A DNA stretch of 64,000 bases, taken from an uncultured Gemmata sp. (GTDB taxonomy: Bacteria > Planctomycetota > Planctomycetia > Gemmatales > Gemmataceae). Positions 55,770-64,000 of this stretch are shown one piece after another. The translations under genes and the position numbers were made by a program. Each line of letters begins with the position of its first letter. Position 1 is the stretch's first letter. The notes under the pieces were generated by a model. The model was given only the letters and a program-made list of their open reading frames with translations, was not told the DNA's origin and did not search any database. The stretch is from contig CALDUT010000019.1 in the NCBI GenBank assembly GCA_937924775.1, forward strand, positions 62,001-126,000, in the 5' to 3' direction.

Positions 55770-58262
55770 CTACTTCCGTTGCAAAAGGAGCGGAAGTTGG
55801 GGCAGCGTACTGCCGGCCGCTGGTGTGAGCACAACGCCTGCCGCCGGCTCGGAGCCAGTCGGCTTGACGAGCCGCGGAGGGTGGCGTAGCCGGTCGAAGC
55901 GGAACGTGTTGGAACTCCCGTGATCCCATACCAACTGAAGTTCCTGCGGCCCGGCTCGCACCGGGATTTCCACCCGCAGTTCATCTTCCGCATAATACTT
56001 GAGTGCCCCGGGGCCTTCCAATGTCAGTTGATAGACAACCATTTTTCCGCGTACTTGCCCTTTGCCGGGAACGAACCTGGCCTGTTGTTGCTGCTGCCCG
56101 CGTATGATTGTGAGTGTCAGCGGTCCGGCCACTTCAATGCGGTCCAGCCCCACCGTGAGGTTGATAGGCAAAGCCAATTCCCAGCCGCGAACATTCAGTT
56201 CAAATGCTGTGGCGTCCAAATCGTGCAAGAAACGGGCCAGCTCGACGATGGGATCGGGCGGCGGGGGATCGTCCTTGCGTTCTCGCTGCAACCGGGCCAC
56301 CAGGTGCAGCAACCGGCCCCAATCGCGAAACGCCGGCTCCGCCAGTGAAGTGGCGAGGGTTTTCCAGTTCTCCTTGGTATCTGGCCCTGTGATCAATTTT
56401 TGTACATGTTGAACTCCGGTGTCGAAGGAGTGCTGGAGCCGTTCTTTGAGAATGGCGGTGGTGGGGGGATAAAAGTGGTGCAGTTCCCAATCGCCGTATT
56501 CCGGGGCTTGGGCGGGGTAGTTTTGGACCAAGGCTGTCCAACGGGCCCCTGGGAGTGTCGTGGAATCCGCCGCGGCGGGCTCGGGCAACACCAGCACCGC
56601 CGGGGGGCGGTCCGGCCCGCTGGTCAAACCCAGGGCGTCCGCCAGATCGCGGAGATGGAGCAGGCGTTGCCGGGTATGCGCCATAGTTTCGCGAGCGCGG
56701 GTCACACCGTCGAAGTAGAGCAGGTCGCGGTAGGTGACTGGTTCGCCCCGGGGTTGTGGCAGTCGCAGTGAACCGGGGATGGGATCGTCCAGTGGAAACG
56801 GCGGTTGGGTGGTCTTGGTCAAAAGAGCCTCGAGTTCGGCCAGCCAAACGGCATCAAAACTGCGGGTCAGCAGATGACCGGTAAGTTCCCGATCCCAGGC
56901 GGTGTATTTTTCCACAAACACCGGCTCGGCCGCCATGATCGCCGCGGCATCGGCCAGCCATTTATTGCGAAGTTCCGCCGCCGCCGTGGCTTCCCACGAG
57001 TAGTGAGCCGGCAAGGCCAATTCGGTCTGGATCGTCTGTACGATCTGTTTGAGTTGGGGGTCGATGTTGCGGGCCGACGCGGGCGACGCGGCCTGGGCGA
57101 GCTTCCGCCGATACTCTTGGTAGTCTTCAATCTCTTGCAAGCGGCTGTGAACAAACTCGCGTAATTCGCTCTCCAGGGCCGGAAAACCGACATCACTGGC
57201 GAACGCTAAAAGGATTTTCTTGTTGCGTTCGATCTGTCCGTTGGCCAAACGCATGGCCGCCGGCGGTTCCTGCCTCTGATATTGGCGAACTTTTTCCGCC
57301 AAAGCCAGGGCTGTTTGTTCGGGAGGGAAGAAGGTGACAATCCCGAGCGTCGTCAGCAGGAGAAGGACCAGACTGATCGCCGCGCGAACTGTCCACTTCA
57401 GGCGGCGAGCCGATTCCCCAGCCCGCAGGCAATGGGCTTTGGCTTCCGCAAAACATTCCCGAAACAGCTCCGCGACGCCATAGGGCTGATTCTGCGGTAG
57501 CAAACGCCCCCGCAGCGGCGGTTGCCGCACCGCCACGGCTTTCACGGTCAAATCAACACTACCAAACGCCAGAAAAGGGGACGGCATTTCCTCGGTGGTG
57601 GCGGCATCGTGGAGAAACGCGGCGAAGGCCGCCCACGCGGCTTCGCATCGGGCGGCCACCCGCTGTTCCCACTCTTTTCGCGTGTCGTTGGGCCGCGCCA
57701 GTCGATCGCATTGGGTCAGAACGAGAAAAATGGGGAACCCACCGACTTCGCGGGCATCGATTTTGGCACGGGCCACCACCTGGAGGAACTGGTTGAACTC
57801 GTGAAAGGCTTCCTGCAACTCGTCTTCGGTGGAGGAAGCATCAATCAGAAGCATGATGGCATCGGCTTCGACCACCGCACGGGCCAGGGGGCTGTTGGCG
57901 TAGCGTTGCGTGATGGGTTCGGGGTGTTCTAACAGTTCTTCGGCGGCTCGACCGTCGCAATCGTGAAGAATGATCGTCAGGGGTTCGCCGACGGGTTGCG
58001 TTCCGGACCGCCAGGGCCGCAAGTGTATGGTATAGCTGACCAATTCCCGGGCAGGGGCCGTGATTTTTTGATCGCTATAAACCGCATCGCGAATGCGCGG
58101 CAGATCCACCGAGGAGCTGACCAACTCCGCCTGGAGCGTTTCCCCTTGGGTTTCCCCCGCTTGCAGCAGGGCGCCGATAAGGGCCGATTTGCCTGCGCCG
58201 CGGTGGCCAAACAGCAACACCCGCGGTACCGACGGCTCTGATTGCGGTTGCGGCGACGACAT
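55770..58262 (-). CDS. Membrane-anchored TRAFAC-type GTPase, large C-terminal domain
   Basis: An 830-residue protein. G1 is LLFGHRGAGKSALIG (about 16-30), a DxxG-type G3 HDCDG near 107, and G4 LVLTQCDRL near 185. One TM segment lies at about 286-311 (LKWTVRAAISLVLLLLTTLG). The next 500 residues are mainly helical then beta-rich, probably extracytoplasmic, ending in strands such as LDRIEVAGPLTLTIIRG and LQLVWDHGS. A GTPase-TM-extracytoplasmic layout recalls TssM/IcmF of type VI secretion, though no direct family match is claimed. It is the last gene of the minus-strand operon with the TolQ/TolR-like genes (13 bases from the previous gene). Confidence 0.78.
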   Translation of the reverse strand: MSSPQPQSEPSVPRVLLFGHRGAGKSALIGALLQAGETQGETLQAELVSSSVDLPRIRDAVYSDQKITAPARELVSYTIHLRPWRSGTQPVGEPLTIILHDCDGRAAEELLEHPEPITQRYANSPLARAVVEADAIMLLIDASSTEDELQEAFHEFNQFLQVVARAKIDAREVGGFPIFLVLTQCDRLARPNDTRKEWEQRVAARCEAAWAAFAAFLHDAATTEEMPSPFLAFGSVDLTVKAVAVRQPPLRGRLLPQNQPYGVAELFRECFAEAKAHCLRAGESARRLKWTVRAAISLVLLLLTTLGIVTFFPPEQTALALAEKVRQYQRQEPPAAMRLANGQIERNKKILLAFASDVGFPALESELREFVHSRLQEIEDYQEYRRKLAQAASPASARNIDPQLKQIVQTIQTELALPAHYSWEATAAAELRNKWLADAAAIMAAEPVFVEKYTAWDRELTGHLLTRSFDAVWLAELEALLTKTTQPPFPLDDPIPGSLRLPQPRGEPVTYRDLLYFDGVTRARETMAHTRQRLLHLRDLADALGLTSGPDRPPAVLVLPEPAAADSTTLPGARWTALVQNYPAQAPEYGDWELHHFYPPTTAILKERLQHSFDTGVQHVQKLITGPDTKENWKTLATSLAEPAFRDWGRLLHLVARLQRERKDDPPPPDPIVELARFLHDLDATAFELNVRGWELALPINLTVGLDRIEVAGPLTLTIIRGQQQQQARFVPGKGQVRGKMVVYQLTLEGPGALKYYAEDELRVEIPVRAGPQELQLVWDHGSSNTFRFDRLRHPPRLVKPTGSEPAAGVVLTPAAGSTLPQLPLLLQRK

Positions 58263-58275
58263 AAGTCATTAAATT

Positions 58276-58947
58276 TCAACGGTTTGCGGCGATGGTAACA
58301 TCGATTTTCGCCTCTTGGGCCCACCGGGTCAGTTGCGAGATACTGTAATGCGGCGGATCAAGCGCCGGCGCATTCTGGGGCCGAAAGTGAATCGCAATCC
58401 CAAGGCTCCGCTTCTCGTCGGCCTGGCGTGTGCGAATGGCCTCCTTCAGTTCGCCGAAGCTTTTGCGGTCCGGATTGTCGTCGATCAAGTAGAATTTCTC
58501 GTCGCCGGGCACGTCGCTGCCCCCCAGAATGGTCACGCGTATCAGTACCTCTCCTGGTTTCTGGTGAGTGACCAGTTCTGGTTTGGGCGGGGAAAGCTCG
58601 TCTTTCTTCTCGGGTGTCGACGGCGTTTGGGTGCTGTCGTCGGGGGCCGTGGTGCCGGTGCCCTCTGCAGGTCCGCCGCCTCCGAAAAGCCCGCTGCCCC
58701 CTTCACCAAACACAAAGAGTGCCACTAGAATCGCTATGGTTACACCCGCGAGAATGGCGCAGGCTGACTTGAGCTGGTCGGGAGCTTTGTGAGCCAGCAC
58801 CCACCGGTTCACAGCCCACGCCAACGCATAACCGAACAGATAGCCCAGGAGAAATCCCCCCCCTACCGCCAGGCACTTGAACACCACCATGACGACCCGG
58901 TTTTCCAACCCAGTGGTCATGCCATCAGCCCACAGTGGCTCGATCAT
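58276..58947 (-). CDS. Two-TM protein with periplasmic ExbD-like tail
   Basis: A 223-residue protein with TM segments at about 21-46 and 62-82, a Gly/Thr/Pro-rich linker (about 84-125), then a soluble C-terminal domain (about 130-223) with strand GEVLIRVTILGG and the ending ISQLTRWAQEAKIDVTIAANR. This resembles the small C-terminal domain of ExbD/TolR proteins, where a helix is followed by a final strand. No family name is certain. It lies 13 bases before the GTPase and ten after the TolR-like gene, so the proteins probably act together. Confidence 0.6.
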   Translation of the reverse strand: MIEPLWADGMTTGLENRVVMVVFKCLAVGGGFLLGYLFGYALAWAVNRWVLAHKAPDQLKSACAILAGVTIAILVALFVFGEGGSGLFGGGGPAEGTGTTAPDDSTQTPSTPEKKDELSPPKPELVTHQKPGEVLIRVTILGGSDVPGDEKFYLIDDNPDRKSFGELKEAIRTRQADEKRSLGIAIHFRPQNAPALDPPHYSISQLTRWAQEAKIDVTIAANR

Positions 58948-58957
58948 ACAGCCCCCC

Positions 58958-59485
58958 TCACCAACCGGCCCCCGTATCGAAACCGATCAATTCGTTGCTG
59001 AACCACGACCGTATCTCATTGACCTGTTCTTGCGTCGGATAGCTGGAGCGGGGTGGGAACAATACCAAAAAGAAGACGTCTTTCACCCCCCCGGATTTAT
59101 TCGCGATCGCCTTCTGCTGATTGATCAATTTGAGCGCGTCGTGCGCGGTGCGAATTTCTTGCCGCTCGGGGCTGTCCGGCGTGTAATAGAAAAGCGTACC
59201 GGTGTTGCGGTCGATCTGCAACACGCGGACACTCAACCGGTCAGCCAAGCGGGCTTGCATGCTTTTTTCCAGCCGTTCGATGCGGGCCTTGGCTTCGCTC
59301 AGTTCGCGTTGCAATTCGCGCACATCCTGGGGCAATTCCTCTTTCGGCTCGGCGGCCGTCGGCCGGGAGTCGGTCGCCGGTTCACTAACTAAGGGCATCA
59401 GCAAGAAAATCGCAAAAAGCAGAATGAGAACGTCGATGAGAGGAATGAAGAAGCGGGTCACGGAACGACGCGGCGGAATGATCAC
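58958..59485 (-). CDS. TolR/ExbD-like stator protein
   Basis: A 175-residue protein with a single N-terminal TM segment (FFIPLIDVLILLFAIFLLMP, about 12-31). Asp18 in LIDV matches the proton-carrying Asp of ExbD/TolR. A coiled coil follows (about 50-80, LQRELSEAKARIERLEKS), then a periplasmic domain with DRLSVRVLQIDRNTG and a helix-strand end. The GTG start 59485 overlaps the stop of the TolQ-like gene (GTGA). It is longer than usual ExbD (about 140) because of the coiled coil. Predicted to form the ion channel with the next protein. Confidence 0.75.
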   Translation of the reverse strand: MIIPPRRSVTRFFIPLIDVLILLFAIFLLMPLVSEPATDSRPTAAEPKEELPQDVRELQRELSEAKARIERLEKSMQARLADRLSVRVLQIDRNTGTLFYYTPDSPERQEIRTAHDALKLINQQKAIANKSGGVKDVFFLVLFPPRSSYPTQEQVNEIRSWFSNELIGFDTGAGW

Positions 59486-60036
59486 GGCTTATCCCCCGGG
59501 GCCAGGGGAGGTACAGCGATGGGAGTTGGGGCTGTGGGCGCCGGGGCCAAGCCGGCCAACGCCCGGATCAGATCACGCCCCACCGAAACCACCCAAACCG
59601 GCAAAATATTGATGAAAGCCATGTACAACCCGCCCCCGGTCGCGGTGATCGCCGGACCATAGGCATGAAGGATATCCTGGGGTGTGACCCCCGGCTTGAT
59701 CGAACTGAAGGTCTGCAGAATCGCCACCACGGTGCCAATCAAGCCCAATAAGGGAAACCATTCCGCTCCCTGGGCCAAATGGCTCAGCCACCGATCGGTG
59801 CGAATATCGAAATCCGTTTCCTGCCAGCGCAAAGCCTTCCACGACAAACTGATCTGCACAGCGAATAGGGTGAACCCCAGGGTGATGATGATCCAATCAA
59901 TCGGCGAAGTACGGACACGCTCCAGATATTGCCCGCGGGCATCGGTCGGTACGGCAAAAAAGAGAGTCGCGGCCGTCAAAACCGGAATCGCGGCGAACGT
60001 CAGCGGCAGTACATGATGAATCCAGACCCGACGCAC
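59482..60036 (-). CDS. TolQ/ExbB/MotA-like proton-channel protein
   Basis: A 184-residue membrane protein with about four TM segments. The signature PLLGLIGTVVAILQTFSSI (about 95-113) matches the TolQ/ExbB block, and AITATGGGLYMAFINI (about 129-144) carries the channel-lining Thr residues (T131, T133) in the ATxxGLxxA context. The start is GTG 60036 with GGAGG seven bases upstream. It lies 30 bases after ybgC and overlaps the TolR-like gene by four bases (GTGA), implying translational coupling. Confidence 0.8.
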   Translation of the reverse strand: MRRVWIHHVLPLTFAAIPVLTAATLFFAVPTDARGQYLERVRTSPIDWIIITLGFTLFAVQISLSWKALRWQETDFDIRTDRWLSHLAQGAEWFPLLGLIGTVVAILQTFSSIKPGVTPQDILHAYGPAITATGGGLYMAFINILPVWVVSVGRDLIRALAGLAPAPTAPTPIAVPPLAPGDKP

Positions 60037-60066
60037 GGACGCTCCTCCCCCAGCACCATCGGCCAG

Positions 60067-60510
60067 TTACTCGTCACCGACTACCCAAGCCGGCATTTCT
60101 CGCAGTTTACCGTCTTTTCCCACGCACGCGAGCGTCGAACTGCCTTCGCAAATCAAAGTTCCATCGCGAAAAACCTCATACTTATGCTCAATGCGAATGG
60201 GGCTGGTCCGTGTCACTGTCGTGCGGATGGTGAGCAGATCGTCGTAATACGCGGGCAGTTTGTATTTCACCTCAATCTTCGCCACCACCAAAAAGTAACC
60301 TTGATCCTCCAATTCCTTGTACGACGCTTGCCGGGCCCGAAGCAATTCCGTCCGGGCTTGTTCAAAATACACGAGGTAATTGGCATGGTGCAGCAAACCC
60401 ATGCGATCAGTCTCCGCATAGCGGACGCGGATTTGGATTTCTCCTGTTCGGCTCACAGTCGCCTCGGATGGGATTGCGAAACTCTGATTCTCTACGCTCT
60501 TTCTACCCAC
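60067..60510 (-). CDS. ybgC: YbgC-type 4-hydroxybenzoyl-CoA-like thioesterase
   Basis: A 147-residue hot-dog fold acyl-CoA thioesterase. RVRYAETDRMGLLHHANYLVYFEQART contains the catalytic Asp of the YbgC signature, and SPIRIEHKYEVFRDGTLICEGSSTLACV the central strands. The GTG start overlaps the last base of the preceding signal-peptidase stop (TAGTG). In proteobacteria ybgC is the first gene of the tol-pal operon; here it likewise precedes the TolQ- and TolR-like genes. Confidence 0.85.
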   Translation of the reverse strand: MGRKSVENQSFAIPSEATVSRTGEIQIRVRYAETDRMGLLHHANYLVYFEQARTELLRARQASYKELEDQGYFLVVAKIEVKYKLPAYYDDLLTIRTTVTRTSPIRIEHKYEVFRDGTLICEGSSTLACVGKDGKLREMPAWVVGDE

Positions 60511-62252
60511 TACTTAATAAAACCCACACGGCCCAGCGGGAAGAAGACAAACACCGCTTTGCCCAGCAGCAGCCGCTCAGGAACCACCCCCCATTTGCGG
60601 CTGTCTGAACTTTGGGCGCTGTTATCGCCCAAGCACAGATAATGCCCCGGTTGAACGTAGAAAATGTCAGCACTGCTGTGGTCGCCCACGCCCAGCTCAC
60701 GGGTGTAGTAGATGTCGCGGTACAGCTTGATGTGCCGAATCGAGGCCACCGCGCCGCGGGCACCGATACTGGCCGGGCGGTCGATATCGTCTTGCGTGTA
60801 GCCTTCTTTGTTCTGAAGATCGTCCGGATGCAGTGTCGCTGGCTCCACAGGGCTGTAATTGGCTTCATCCCCAAAATCGATAAGCTTACCATCAACCCAC
60901 ACCCAAAGCCGGCAATCGACATTCGCAAACCGCAACTTGTAGGTGCCTGCCTGAACGGGGTACGGCCGTGTGGGTTGGCCAAACTCCGGGCCTAAAGCCC
61001 CGATACGGGCCAGCGACACTTGCCCGTTGCCAAATTTGGCTTGAAATCGGCTTGTGCTGCGCGTTAATTCCAAAACGACCTCCGAACCGGCCGTCATCTC
61101 GACTTCGCATTCGAGAATGAGATCGCCCACCCACATGGTAGCATCGCGAAGTGAATCGCGGCTCTCGTCGCGGCTTTGCGCTTGCCGCAGCACGGGATTC
61201 CATTCGATGCCGGCGTTGTAACCGAGCATGTTGTCGATGGGGCCGGGCACGGGCTTGGCTCCCTCCGGATCTGGCCAGCGCCACGGCACGCGACGTTTAT
61301 TGGCATCGAGTTTCCATACCAAATGTTTGTAGGTGATCCAATCGAGTTCATCGCCCGAATGGGCGAAAGCCCGGGGTTGTTTATCGTTGTCCGTTGTCCA
61401 GCGCCCCTCCGGACCGACGATTTGCCACCGCGGCAGGCCGATCCCGACCAGTTCTTTGGGTTGTTTGTCGTTATCCCACACCATGCGCATATCCGCGAGC
61501 AGTTGCTGTTCCCCTTTGCGAATAATTTCAAAGCCGCCGGGCACCTGGTTGGTGAAGCCGGCCTCACGCGAAGCCCGGAAGAGTTCCTCCGCGTGCGCGC
61601 TATTGGGATAGCGATACTCCGGTTTCCACAGATCCACAGCCCGTTCGGGTCGCGGGAAAAGCGGGTTATCCTCGGGATAAGCCAATGATCGCGTCATAAA
61701 CAGGTCGCCGCGATGAATAGCAATCGTCTCGCCGCCAAAACCCATGGCTCGCTTGATGTAATTGGCCGGAACATGGTTCTCCTGTGGGGCTTCGGGATAT
61801 TTGAAAACGACCACATCGCCACGATGGGGCGGGCGAATATGATACAACGGTTTGAGAACCAACACGCGGTCGCCACTGTTGTTTTTCTCGGGCAACCCAT
61901 GATTCAAATCGCGATGCATGTACCGGCAGTTGGGACAGGTGTAGCCCACCAAGGGATGTCGCTGCCGCGTACTCTGGTTGACTTCGACTTCGTCATGGGA
62001 ATTAATAGGGAACAGGTGTCCACATTTTGTACAGGTGATTAGTTTCTGGTAGCCGTAGAGCGTTTCGGCCATCGAACCGGTGGGGATGACGAACGCTTCG
62101 GTCACGAACAACTTGAGCAACAGTACCAACACCACCACAAAAACGATCGTCTCGACGACCTCCCGGGCCGGGTCGCGAGACGCGAGTTTCTTCTTCTCGC
62201 TGTCGCTCTCCATCTGTTCCCGACTTTTTGTAGCGGCCAGTGTGCTGGTCAT
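60510..62252 (-). CDS. lepB: Signal peptidase I with zinc-ribbon and lectin-like insertions
   Basis: A 580-residue type I signal peptidase, over twice the usual size. ATG 62252 is preferred (GAGG five bases upstream) over GTG 62270. One TM segment (about 33-55) precedes box B FVIPTGSMAETLYG (catalytic Ser), a four-Cys zinc ribbon (CTKCGH ... CPNCRY, about 75-115), box D NYIKRAMGFGGETI (catalytic Lys, about 160), a 350-residue insertion including a concanavalin-like sandwich (ILECEVEMTAGSEVVLELTR; YKLRFANVDCRLWVWVDGK), and box E LCLGDNSAQSSDSRKWG near the end. It heads the run of overlapping minus-strand genes with ybgC. Confidence 0.88.
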   Translation of the reverse strand: MTSTLAATKSREQMESDSEKKKLASRDPAREVVETIVFVVVLVLLLKLFVTEAFVIPTGSMAETLYGYQKLITCTKCGHLFPINSHDEVEVNQSTRQRHPLVGYTCPNCRYMHRDLNHGLPEKNNSGDRVLVLKPLYHIRPPHRGDVVVFKYPEAPQENHVPANYIKRAMGFGGETIAIHRGDLFMTRSLAYPEDNPLFPRPERAVDLWKPEYRYPNSAHAEELFRASREAGFTNQVPGGFEIIRKGEQQLLADMRMVWDNDKQPKELVGIGLPRWQIVGPEGRWTTDNDKQPRAFAHSGDELDWITYKHLVWKLDANKRRVPWRWPDPEGAKPVPGPIDNMLGYNAGIEWNPVLRQAQSRDESRDSLRDATMWVGDLILECEVEMTAGSEVVLELTRSTSRFQAKFGNGQVSLARIGALGPEFGQPTRPYPVQAGTYKLRFANVDCRLWVWVDGKLIDFGDEANYSPVEPATLHPDDLQNKEGYTQDDIDRPASIGARGAVASIRHIKLYRDIYYTRELGVGDHSSADIFYVQPGHYLCLGDNSAQSSDSRKWGVVPERLLLGKAVFVFFPLGRVGFIK

Positions 62253-62370
62253 GCCGACCTCATTTCCCACATCCGGTACGAGCCCGGTGCATTACCGGTT
62301 CGTCACGAGCCAACCGAAAATCCCAGGATGAGCCGATCCCATTCCCAGAATACCGCGTGCGCTAGCACGC

Positions 62371-63972
62371 TCAGTGCAACCAGCGCAAACGCGACCAATC
62401 GAGGGTTTGAAGTTCCCGTTCGCGGCCACCGAGGCGGTAATGGCTCATGCGCAACGGTTGATGAATGAGGAATGGTTTACCGATGAAATCGCCTTCTGGC
62501 ACGCCTGGCGACGGCCATTTCCGGCTGTCTTGCGAATTCCCGCTGTTATCCCCCAGAACGAAGTACTCCTGCGGTCCCAAGCGGGCCGGTTGCCGAGTTC
62601 CATGAAGACCATAGTCGGACGTATAGTGGGTATCCCGCCACAGTTGGAGCCGGTGAACTGCCACGCGGCAGCCCCGAGCCCCCAGTTGCAACGGCCGGCT
62701 GACGTCTTTCCGATTCCGCACCCCCGGCAAGTCGGCACTCAGCCACGGCTGACCATCGACCGCCACAATCGCCCGGCGATCGACAAACGCAAACTCAAAG
62801 CGATATGTCCGACCAACTTCCAACGATACACCCCGCCGCGAACACAAACCCCCATGACCGGCCCACAGCAGATGCGCTTGACCGGTAGACCGCTCGCCCA
62901 CCGTGATTTCCACGCTCACCGCATCGGCCCCGTCCAGCAACCGGCACGCCCAACTGGCTTCCCCATACGCCGCTGCTGCTGTCACTTCCACATCGCAAGT
63001 GACAATGAAATCATGGGCCGCGGGGTATTGGCCCAGATAGCGCGGAGCCCCATCGTAGGGCGTCCAGACCGTAATCGGTTGTTCGCGGCGTTCATCAAGG
63101 TGCCAGTGACGATAGGTCAAACCGACCATGGTTTGCGGCGACTCGGCCGCATCCAGAATCAAGGCCTTCTGATGAATCACCGGGCGCAATCGGTCGCTCG
63201 GCAAGTCGGCCGGAAGCCGAGGATCCTCTTCAGTCACTAGCCACCGGGAGGCCCAACTACCACCGTGGGGAGCGCAGGTCATGTCGAACACCGGAACCAT
63301 CAGTTCACGAATTTCAGGGAATGTTTTGCGAACCAGTTGGTCGTCGGCATACACATCGCCCTCAGCAATGGTGATGGTTTCCCCGGGCAGGCCGACGACC
63401 CGCTTCACATAGGGTTTGCCGTATTCCTCGGGGTCGGTGTCGGGGCAGCGGAAAACCACCATCTCCCAACGTCGCGGCGAACGGAGGCTATAAACGTTTT
63501 TGTCCACTAACAACCGATCGCCGGCAATGTCGCGAGCCTCCGCCAGAGAAAAGCGATAATCACAGTTCGGGCAGGCCACATGGGCAAAGTGATCGGCCGC
63601 ATTCCCCCGCGTGGGTCGACCGACACGCACAACATATCCACACCGCGGACACGGCCCACTGCGGTGATGACCAATCAGGACCGGGGCCATACTCCCGGTC
63701 GGCACCCCAAAAGGCTCCACCGCCAGGGTGCGCAGGATCAGCAAACCACTGAAAAACACTACCCCAACCACCAACAGGGTCCGAAAGGGAGTGACATGGG
63801 CGATCGGTGCTGGAGTGGTTAGCGGGGGGTGGAGTCCCGCGGCTGGCGATTCGGGTGGGCGAGAACTCGTGGTGTCATGCGCCGGCATTATTGGCGGAAT
63901 CGGTGGGCCCGTGCCGGGGGTGGCCGTGGCGGGCGGGAGGGCGTGGTTAGGCCGCGGTTCGGCGTAGTCCAT
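62371..63972 (-). CDS. Signal peptidase I, second copy with zinc ribbon and insertion
   Basis: A 533-residue paralogue of the next gene. After a Pro-rich N-terminus and one TM segment (about 65-85), box B reads FGVPTGSMAPVLIG, a zinc ribbon CPRCGYVVRV ... HVACPNCDYRFS follows, then box D YVKRVVGLPGETI, a long insertion with a lectin-like sandwich (FIVTCDVEVTAAAAYGEASW; YRFEFAFVDRRAIVAVDGQPW), and box E FVLGDNSGNSQDSRKW. All catalytic residues are present. The start is ATG 63972 (a GTG six bases upstream is possible); the gene begins 29 bases from the window end. Confidence 0.87.
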   Translation of the reverse strand: MDYAEPRPNHALPPATATPGTGPPIPPIMPAHDTTSSRPPESPAAGLHPPLTTPAPIAHVTPFRTLLVVGVVFFSGLLILRTLAVEPFGVPTGSMAPVLIGHHRSGPCPRCGYVVRVGRPTRGNAADHFAHVACPNCDYRFSLAEARDIAGDRLLVDKNVYSLRSPRRWEMVVFRCPDTDPEEYGKPYVKRVVGLPGETITIAEGDVYADDQLVRKTFPEIRELMVPVFDMTCAPHGGSWASRWLVTEEDPRLPADLPSDRLRPVIHQKALILDAAESPQTMVGLTYRHWHLDERREQPITVWTPYDGAPRYLGQYPAAHDFIVTCDVEVTAAAAYGEASWACRLLDGADAVSVEITVGERSTGQAHLLWAGHGGLCSRRGVSLEVGRTYRFEFAFVDRRAIVAVDGQPWLSADLPGVRNRKDVSRPLQLGARGCRVAVHRLQLWRDTHYTSDYGLHGTRQPARLGPQEYFVLGDNSGNSQDSRKWPSPGVPEGDFIGKPFLIHQPLRMSHYRLGGRERELQTLDWSRLRWLH

Positions 63973-64000
63973 AAGCACTCGCCAAGGCTGTGTCGGTTGG

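Follow-up and report, generated by a model that had tools for sequence, protein, structure and literature searches.

What does a TolQ/TolR-type stator pair do beside a gene for a large membrane GTPase? We asked this of a gene cluster in a 64,000-nucleotide stretch of DNA from an uncultured Gemmata sp. (the window), which covers positions 62001-126000 of contig C19 (CALDUT010000019.1) in a genome of 4.79 Mb. Five minus-strand open reading frames encode a YbgC-like thioesterase, a TolQ-like protein, a TolR-like protein, a protein with two transmembrane (TM) segments (TM2) and a GTPase protein with a single TM segment. Opinion is evenly balanced on whether these five genes form one inner-membrane machine of the MotAB/ExbBD/TolQR class, with the GTPase-bearing bitopic protein in the place of TolA. 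The proposal has its basis in the sequences: pore residues are kept, both stator proteins occur in 58 of 61 genomes of the family, and the bitopic and two-TM proteins are kept beside the pair or elsewhere in the genome. We consider it likely that a TolQR-type motor here has a partner bearing a GTPase, and not likely that GTP drives it.

60067..60510, minus strand: YbgC/FadM-family acyl-CoA thioesterase, 147 residues (TIGR00051, 90.3 bits, cut-off 68.7)
59482..60036, minus strand: TolQ/ExbB-like stator protein, 184 residues (PF01618, 35.8 bits, cut-off 22.9)
58958..59485, minus strand: TolR/ExbD-like protein, 175 residues; one hydrophobic segment with Asp18, then a C-terminal part
58276..58947, minus strand: two-TM protein (TM2), 223 residues; two hydrophobic segments, a low-confidence linker and a C-terminal b-b-a-b-a-b domain
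55770..58262, minus strand: bitopic GTPase protein, 830 residues; G motifs, AlphaFold2 model, one TM segment

The frames lie as the original prediction, made from the sequence alone, had placed them, with the same coordinates, order and tight packing. Gaps of 30, 10 and 13 bases separate ybgC from tolQ, tolR from TM2 and TM2 from the GTPase gene, and tolQ overlaps tolR by 4 bases. The order TolQ-TolR-TM2-GTPase recurs in all 16 'same genus' loci that span the four genes on one contig, so the arrangement is not chance. In Pfam and NCBIfam searches, the TolQ-like, thioesterase and signal peptidase proteins pass family cut-offs, and the TolR-like, two-TM and GTPase proteins of the window, each taken alone, fall under every one. 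No family of PADLOC, which holds known defence systems including Zorya, matched any of the five proteins at E<=1.

A stator pair with conserved pore residues

The TolQ-like protein has four hydrophobic segments, with a loop of ~30 residues between the second and third, and matches the Pfam family MotA_ExbB at E=7.8e-9, over the cut-off. In a profile search of the PDB, TolQ came first (8vlw, 3.4e-4; 8odt, 3.6e-4), followed by MotA and ExbB. It is the best conserved of the four membrane proteins, at 67-94% identity among 'same genus' loci. Profile alignment places T102 and T133 on T145 and T178 of TolQ in 8odt, which we take to be the pore threonines, and both are invariant in 38 family rows. 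T131 and T133 had been named as the channel residues; T133 holds, but T131 gives way to T102, since T102 and T133 are the pair that the 8odt alignment selects. T131 is itself invariant in the 38 rows, but is Ser in two distant relatives.

The second stator protein carries D18 in its hydrophobic segment, intact as predicted and invariant in 39 rows. Its profile finds MotB as the best PDB match (E=0.0044, from residue 14 on). Against the ExbD family (PF02472), the window protein alone scores E=0.6 and 10.6 bits, below the cut-off of 25.4, and 27 of the 39 TolR-like family members match at E<=0.5 (best 9.5e-5). By sequence, then, the window pair are TolQ-like and TolR-like proteins with conserved pore residues.

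The fifth protein carries a Ras/Rag/Arf-like GTPase domain

The 830-residue protein had been read as a membrane GTPase, and it does combine a predicted GTPase domain with one TM segment. Its AlphaFold2 model, built from 42 rows, reaches a mean predicted local distance difference test score (pLDDT) of 90.7 and a predicted template modelling score (pTM) of 0.58. The model divides into a GTPase domain (~13-280), the TM segment (~294-312), a helical part (~318-680) and a C-terminal beta part (~687-830), and one long helix holds the TM segment. The hydrophobic segment at 294-312 is the only one, with ~520 residues after it. The window protein reads GHRGAGKS at G1, DCDG at G3 and TQCD at G4; TQCD is shared by most of its genus, and elsewhere G4 is usually T/S/N-K-C-D.

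Structural searches with the model returned SRbeta (Foldseek E=1.1e-5) and RagD (1.3e-4), and VIA-align gave RagC a Z of 18.0 over 177 aligned residues (root-mean-square deviation 2.5), with rows spanning residues 9-280. These fold matches are general small-GTPase ones and show no function. Pfam matches of the window protein to P-loop and GTPase families were all sub-threshold, including DO-GTPase2 at 19.9 bits (cut-off 27). We conclude that the fifth protein has a confidently modelled Ras/Rag/Arf-like GTPase domain whose activity is predicted.

TssM consists of a GTPase domain, TM segments, a helical and then a beta part, with more TM segments than this protein has. The layout of the window protein recalls it, and the family IcmF-related_N is matched by 5 of 42 members at E<=0.1 (best 2.3e-4). 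A TssM/IcmF-like protein that took over a TolQR motor and serves in secretion across the envelope or as a scaffold is nonetheless very improbable, given the lower number of TM segments, no IcmF periplasmic family among the matches listed (25 of the 53 Pfam families matched by members) and no TssM among the 13 PDB sequences that the profile matched at E<=0.1.

Could the protein instead be a domesticated relative of the DO-GTPase conflict systems, in which a GTPase paired with GAP1 would sense damage or invaders and act at the membrane? DO-GTPase2 is matched by 22 of 42 members at E<=0.1 (best 9.4e-7) and DO-GTPase1 by 3 of 42 (best 4.7e-6), and the GTPase of a distant stator cluster (L217, below) has a sub-threshold DO-GTPase2 match (E=7e-4). 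The published DO-GTPases, as far as that paper's main text describes them, are likewise TRAFAC-type GTPases with membrane links, and the Pfam matches to DO-GTPase2 here are weak to moderate, but the window cluster differs from them in having no GAP1 next door and a family-wide distribution; the main text mentions no TolQ, ExbB or MotA (PMC7159879). The gene that follows the GTPase gene encodes an amidohydrolase (PF04909, 1e-29) and not GAP1, which was sought next door only; the cluster, far from being patchy, occurs in nearly all of the family and lies next to housekeeping genes, and PADLOC gave no match at E<=1. We regard this origin as quite unlikely.

Stator and GTPase co-occur across the family

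We surveyed 248 genomes of the class, 61 from the window's family, 7 from a sister family and 180 others, with thresholds of E<=1e-10 for the TolQ-like, E<=1e-3 for the TolR-like and E<=0.01 for the GTPase protein; related genomes are not independent trials. The TolQ-like protein occurs in 58 of the 61 family genomes, in 4 of 7 of the sister family (one, G021, of a distant type at 1.8e-17) and in 1 of 180 others (G179, distant). In a wider TolQ profile search at 1e-8, cluster-type proteins reach down to 1.6e-33, the one exception being part of a contig in G248 (3e-14); the matches to other stator families start from 1.8e-11. The TolR-like protein follows with 58 of 61 and 3 of 7, plus six weak matches (6e-5 to 9e-4) in another family, f4. 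Two of those six loci were fetched and set aside: G055 has an ExbB-ExbD-ExbD cluster with a one-TM frame upstream, and the match in G114 is a frame with two stops and no such neighbours.

The GTPase was found in 49 of 61 family genomes and 1 of 7 of the sister family, and all 50 also have the TolQ-like protein. Among the 180 class genomes outside both families there was one marginal match (G175, E=0.0056), taken as chance. Three family genomes lack the TolQ-like protein, G073 (100% complete), G242 (84%) and G248 (82%), and none of them has the GTPase. The expectation that the two travel together was thus borne out, by 49 of 49 family genomes in one direction and 0 of 3 in the other. Nine family genomes have the TolQ-like protein and no GTPase at threshold. 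Six of these (G086, G163, G090, G196, G115, G133) hold a protein without a P-loop in the GTPase's place at the fetched locus, and all but G115 match a GTPase profile made without them. G215 has neither TM2 nor GTPase after TolR; for G125 and G202 no locus was fetched.

A GTPase search of 31 genomes found it in 18 of 19 'same genus' genomes (own genome included), the exception being G007 (82% complete), and in 1 of 7 of the sister family. In the sister-family genome G019, lepB-YbgC-TolQ-TolR-TM2-GTPase recur beside a LepA-like frame, as named from sequence. Gene order is also conserved in distant genera of the window's family, as had been foreseen. A scan of named genomes with the GTPase found nothing, and one with the TolQ alignment returned 74 loci, with Gemmata and other Gemmataceae as the window's nearest named relatives. 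Fimbriiglobus, Gemmata, Limnoglobus roseus and Zavarzinella formosa are represented; Gemmataceae or Planctomycetota is the name in many of the titles, and a few titles of metagenome-assembled genomes name other taxa. The fifth gene is next door in 40 of the 53 named loci with >=3.5 kb after TolQ, and in one more (L158) by eye. The script counts, this one and 65 of 70 for TolR, are low: over-long frames explain four TolR misses (L140, L148, L202, L204) and the one at L158.

GTPase homologues living away from the stator did not appear, within the limits of these searches, but in 14 of 35 genomes from outside the genus the GTPase gene lies away from tolR. Among 381 other genomes of the phylum, 36 had matches to the GTPase (3e-9 to 1e-3), confined to the GTPase domain in 34 and to model positions 262-362 in two (G441, G386). 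Of four such orphan loci examined (L242-L245), three, L242, L244 and L245, read as ordinary tandem-GTPase proteins, presumably Der/EngA-like.

Parts are kept when the cluster breaks

In 45 of 46 genomes from outside the window's genus, no more than 245 bases separate TolQ from TolR. The GTPase is <=1.9 kb from TolR on the same strand in 21 of 35 and elsewhere in the remaining 14, some of which are contig ends (TolR is at the edge in G042). The fetched flanks place the breaks at three different points, with the parts persisting elsewhere in the genome. Between TolR and TM2 the cluster is broken in G193, G141 and G159, and TM2 and GTPase moved as a pair: in G193 the pair lies 6.2 Mb away on one 9.4 Mb contig, and in G159 there is 1.8 kb of room after TolR. 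In G199 the pair is on another contig. A break between TolQ and TolR in G208 leaves TolR-TM2-GTPase together, and G137, G152 and G103 are broken between TM2 and GTPase.

The 14 separated cases favour another account, that lepB, ybgC, tolQR and the GTPase gene are mere neighbours which share transcription and work apart. The unlinked parts are nevertheless kept in the genome, TM2 and GTPase move as a pair in G193, G141, G159 and G199, and every one of the 49 family genomes with the GTPase has the TolQ-like protein; that the genes are mere neighbours is accordingly a distinctly improbable account. Of all the evidence here, this retention of the parts after separate breaks speaks most strongly for their joint function.

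Fifth proteins without a P-loop occur in several lineages

In the original prediction, proton flow through the stator drives the GTPase, or is gated by it, across the envelope. Direct coupling of GTP hydrolysis and proton flow at the core of the machine draws on the G1, G3 and G4 motifs of the window protein and on a P-loop in 36 of 47 fifth proteins of named loci. The P-loop is absent in the other 11, five of which run to or near a contig end, and it is missing in the fetched fifth proteins of g18, g19, g23 and g25, in G103 and in the sister-family genome G019, where its position reads GPPESDKS. On the TolQ tree these lineages are not one group, though inner branches are often weak.

We tested the homology of the degenerate proteins with a profile of 40 rows built from P-loop members only, the degenerates left out. 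It matches G103 (5.5e-65), G086 (5.6e-28), G133 (1.3e-14) and G196 (2.2e-13). The G103, g18, g19 and g25 proteins match mainly from about position 260 (TM) onward, so the shared core is the TM segment and the part after it; the G019 protein matches inside the GTPase region as well. G115 (g23), cut by a contig end, gave no match (E 0.31). A wide GTPase profile included four proteins placed by position alone (L107-L110), so some of its matching on those contigs (L180, L183, L207, L210) follows from how it was built, a circularity that the P-loop-only profile avoids.

The coupling claim fares badly against these data, the P-loop being gone in several lineages that keep the other parts, with the degenerate g18, g19, g25, G103 and G019 proteins (G115 apart) recognisable as homologues. 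We judge such coupling unlikely. Because the P-loop is lost in whole genera, GTP appears regulatory and dispensable, and on these sequences it is probably a switch and not fuel.

Other fifth proteins are truncated at the far end. Short forms of ~510-540 residues (G190, G205, G218, G251, g22) keep GTPase and TM and have lost the C-terminal beta part, and they form one branch on the TolQ tree (89/86). At L199 (10940-13230, Gemmatales KatS3mg105), the next frame after a short fifth protein has 270 residues and its own TM, and it again matches part of the fifth-protein profile (334-537; the same frame occurs in L122), like a partial second copy.

Tol-Pal components are not detected over cut-offs

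The original prediction held that TolA, TolB and Pal are absent from the operon, with a GTPase in their place. In a different draw of 61 family genomes (own genome included; 43 known to have the TolQ-like protein), none passed the cut-off for TolA (TIGR02794), TolB (TIGR02800) or Pal (TIGR02802), and so no genome combining a full tolA-tolB-pal with these tolQR genes was seen among the 61. Over the same cut-offs, control genomes gave 1 of 14 for TolA, 2 for TolB and 2 for Pal. Below cut-off, TolA matched in 4 of 61, Pal in 4 of 61 and TolB in 61 of 61, the listed TolB matches running from model position 157 on. The near miss for Pal is G264 (L129), at 117.5 bits against 125.35, in a genome that is 69% complete and lacks this TolQ-like protein; the frame may be contamination or a real Pal. 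Weaker Pal matches are in G253, G256 and G205 (26-51 bits).

TM2 and related clusters in other planctomycetes

TM2 had been described as a two-TM protein with an ExbD-like tail. Both TM segments are there, and the tail may be TolR/ExbD-like. The AlphaFold2 model (mean pLDDT 78.6, pTM 0.43) gives the C-terminal domain the order b-b-a-b-a-b, which to us recalls the periplasmic domain of TolR, and hhalign against the TolR family gives a probability of 28% (E=6e-4). As an ExbD domain it fails in the PDB, with no match at E<=0.001 and ExbD 5sv0_D only at rank 42 (E=1.5). Profile comparison links TM2 more closely to the third protein of the beta-helix clusters described next (65%, E=6e-5), which reaches just 5% against those clusters' own TolR.

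Similar clusters with other partners occur elsewhere. In 5 of 391 other genomes of the phylum (L227-L231), a small protein with apparently one TM comes after TolQ-TolR, and then a protein of 511-629 residues. Three of these larger partners were scanned and match PF13229 (4.9e-34 to 3.5e-45) as right-handed beta helices; of the TolR proteins, the two scanned score over the ExbD cut-off. G033, which also has the main cluster, carries a second one (L220, 6092-10280) with TolQ, TolR, two TM proteins and a 636-residue GTPase with one TM that matches the GTPase profile at 6e-9. G179, of another family (L217, 2182-6586), has TolQ, TolR, a third protein and a 571-residue GTPase-TM protein that reaches only 0.009 against the P-loop-only profile. 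G021 has TolQ, TolR, two further proteins and a one-TM protein of 430 residues that lacks a P-loop and does not match the profile. In a tree built from 51 TolQ rows, the cluster proteins, the distant GTPase clusters and the beta-helix clusters are separated (99/93) from four further stator proteins of the same genome and from two more ExbB-like rows; its branches are long and many inner forks weak. It looks as if the bitopic partner can be exchanged, which one would expect at a transducer position.

Two side observations stand apart. After the GTPase at L217 comes a 428-residue protein without a Pfam match at E<=0.5, whose start recalls, in our estimation, GAP1. On contig C12 of the window's own genome, L211 (929-6628) has a TolQ-like frame, two TolR-like frames, a 524-residue frame and a 545-residue frame in which a TM is apparent by eye and which gives a squalene-hopene-cyclase-like match (4e-7); the locus resembles the published layout of TolQ with paired TolR but has no vWA match.

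Signal peptidase and thioesterase genes upstream

The cluster does not start at ybgC, as had been supposed: two signal peptidase I genes continue it upstream, lepB2 being the first cluster gene seen.

62371..63978, minus strand: lepB2, signal peptidase I, 535 residues (TIGR02227, 80.8 bits, cut-off 47)
60510..62270, minus strand: lepB1, signal peptidase I, 586 residues (TIGR02227, 98.6 bits, cut-off 47)

lepB1 overlaps ybgC by one base. YbgC and lepB1 are upstream in 13 of the 16 'same genus' loci, the other three contigs starting <=0.5 kb from TolQ, and lepB2 stands before lepB1 in 'same genus' loci with room. Among named loci with room, the YbgC-like gene is upstream of TolQ in 62 of 67 and lepB1 in 48 of 63. 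The thioesterase matches 4HBT_2 at 4.8e-16, over the cut-off. The ybgC-tolQ-tolR order does resemble the head of the Tol-Pal operon, as claimed, but the Tol-Pal-associated YbgC model TIGR02799 gives the window protein 98.5 bits, below its cut-off of 141.35. Both signal peptidases are unusually large, and their profile matches split into two or three stretches, as if a large domain were inserted. The neighbouring signal peptidase and thioesterase genes suggest co-expression with export and membrane housekeeping.

Two lepB genes at the head of the cluster and SRbeta as best Foldseek match (E=1.1e-5) would fit an export-linked machine, in which an SRbeta-like membrane GTPase and the motor aid secretion or lipoprotein release. 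Rag and Arl proteins score equally well or better by VIA-align, as befits a general small-GTPase fold, and 15 of the 63 named loci with room keep the stator genes without lepB1 upstream. An export role of this kind has hardly any probability in our view.

Discussion

If the five genes do form one machine, five TolQ-like and two TolR-like subunits would make up a proton channel and rotary motor, and proton entry through the TolQ-TolR pore would turn or shift the TolR dimer. The bitopic protein would lie against the motor through its single TM, in the place that TolA takes in Tol-Pal, and that TM may sense or transmit movement at the ring's edge. Its helical and beta part, in the periplasm, would relay force or a conformational signal in the direction of the cell wall or the outer membrane. 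The cytoplasmic GTPase domain would not supply the energy but act as a switch that determines the time or place of motor engagement. TM2 may have an accessory role, perhaps that of another TolR-like subunit. As to what the machine would do, envelope maintenance is the likeliest task in a family where searches turned up no Tol-Pal.

A close parallel is in Myxococcus, where MglA, a separate soluble protein, regulates AglRQS, a motor with two TolR-like proteins. The window GTPase differs in being fused to a TM and a part beyond it and encoded beside the motor. Common to both would be a TolQR-class proton motor working with a Ras-like GTPase. AglRQS itself is described in PMC13104615. With Tol-Pal the window cluster shares the ybgC-tolQ-tolR order, TolQ as best PDB match, the pore Thr and Asp, and a bitopic protein further down; it differs in that 61 family genomes gave no match over cut-off for TolA, TolB or Pal, and in having a very short loop in its TolQ-like protein, an extra two-TM protein, and a bitopic protein with a GTPase domain and no SHLS histidine. 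The systems of TolQ, paired TolR-like proteins and vWA transducers in the Planctomycetes-Verrucomicrobia-Chlamydiae (PVC) group have, as far as described, a tolQ-like gene and a non-TolA bitopic protein as proposed force transducer, as here (PMC12204202). They have two TolR-like genes to the window's one, perhaps two, and their partner has a vWA fold with an SHLS motif in place of a GTPase with helical and beta parts; the word 'GTPase' does not occur in that article's main text (PMC12204202). In the text available of each, a survey of stator relatives mentions no GTPase (PMC12505986), a word search of another paper finds neither 'GTPase' nor 'planctomycet' (PMC9389320), and a third mentions Tol-Pal once, on division in general (PMC5147048). 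The open-licence literature in PubMed Central yielded no description of a planctomycete TolQR-GTPase cluster.

Several observations weigh against the proposal of a single machine with the GTPase protein in TolA's place. Of 35 genomes from other genera, 14 do not have the GTPase as a neighbour of TolR. G023 has TolQ-TolR-TM2 without the fifth protein next door and no GTPase found in the genome, and none was found in G022, whose contig ends 1.2 kb after TM2. The short forms lack the beta part, so using it to reach outwards cannot be a general feature. The negative for TolA is weak, its model being narrow and passed by only 1 of 14 controls. The bitopic TM (residues 294-312) contains no His; TolA, TonB and one vWA transducer family are described as docking through an SHLS-type His (PMC12204202). 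With that histidine missing, any docking of the bitopic protein would differ from that of TolA and TonB.

More tentatively, Gemmataceae may have replaced Tol-Pal by a TolQR-type motor with a Ras/Rag/Arf-like membrane-GTPase transducer, a 5:2 rotary machine with a built-in nucleotide switch. It could be one branch of a wider planctomycete class that shapes the envelope and consists of TolQ, TolR, a small TM protein and an exchangeable partner, be it a GTPase, a degenerate GTPase or a beta helix. To our knowledge, none of the known transducers (TolA, TonB and the vWA proteins) has a nucleotide switch of its own. In the window cluster a single polypeptide, whose gene lies beside those of the motor, is the candidate for both switch and transducer; it is nearly universal in a family without a found Tol-Pal, and the natural variants, with P-loop lost, C-terminal part lost or partner exchanged, are ready-made experiments on the role of each domain. 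The cluster thus bears on how TolQR-class motors are told when to work.

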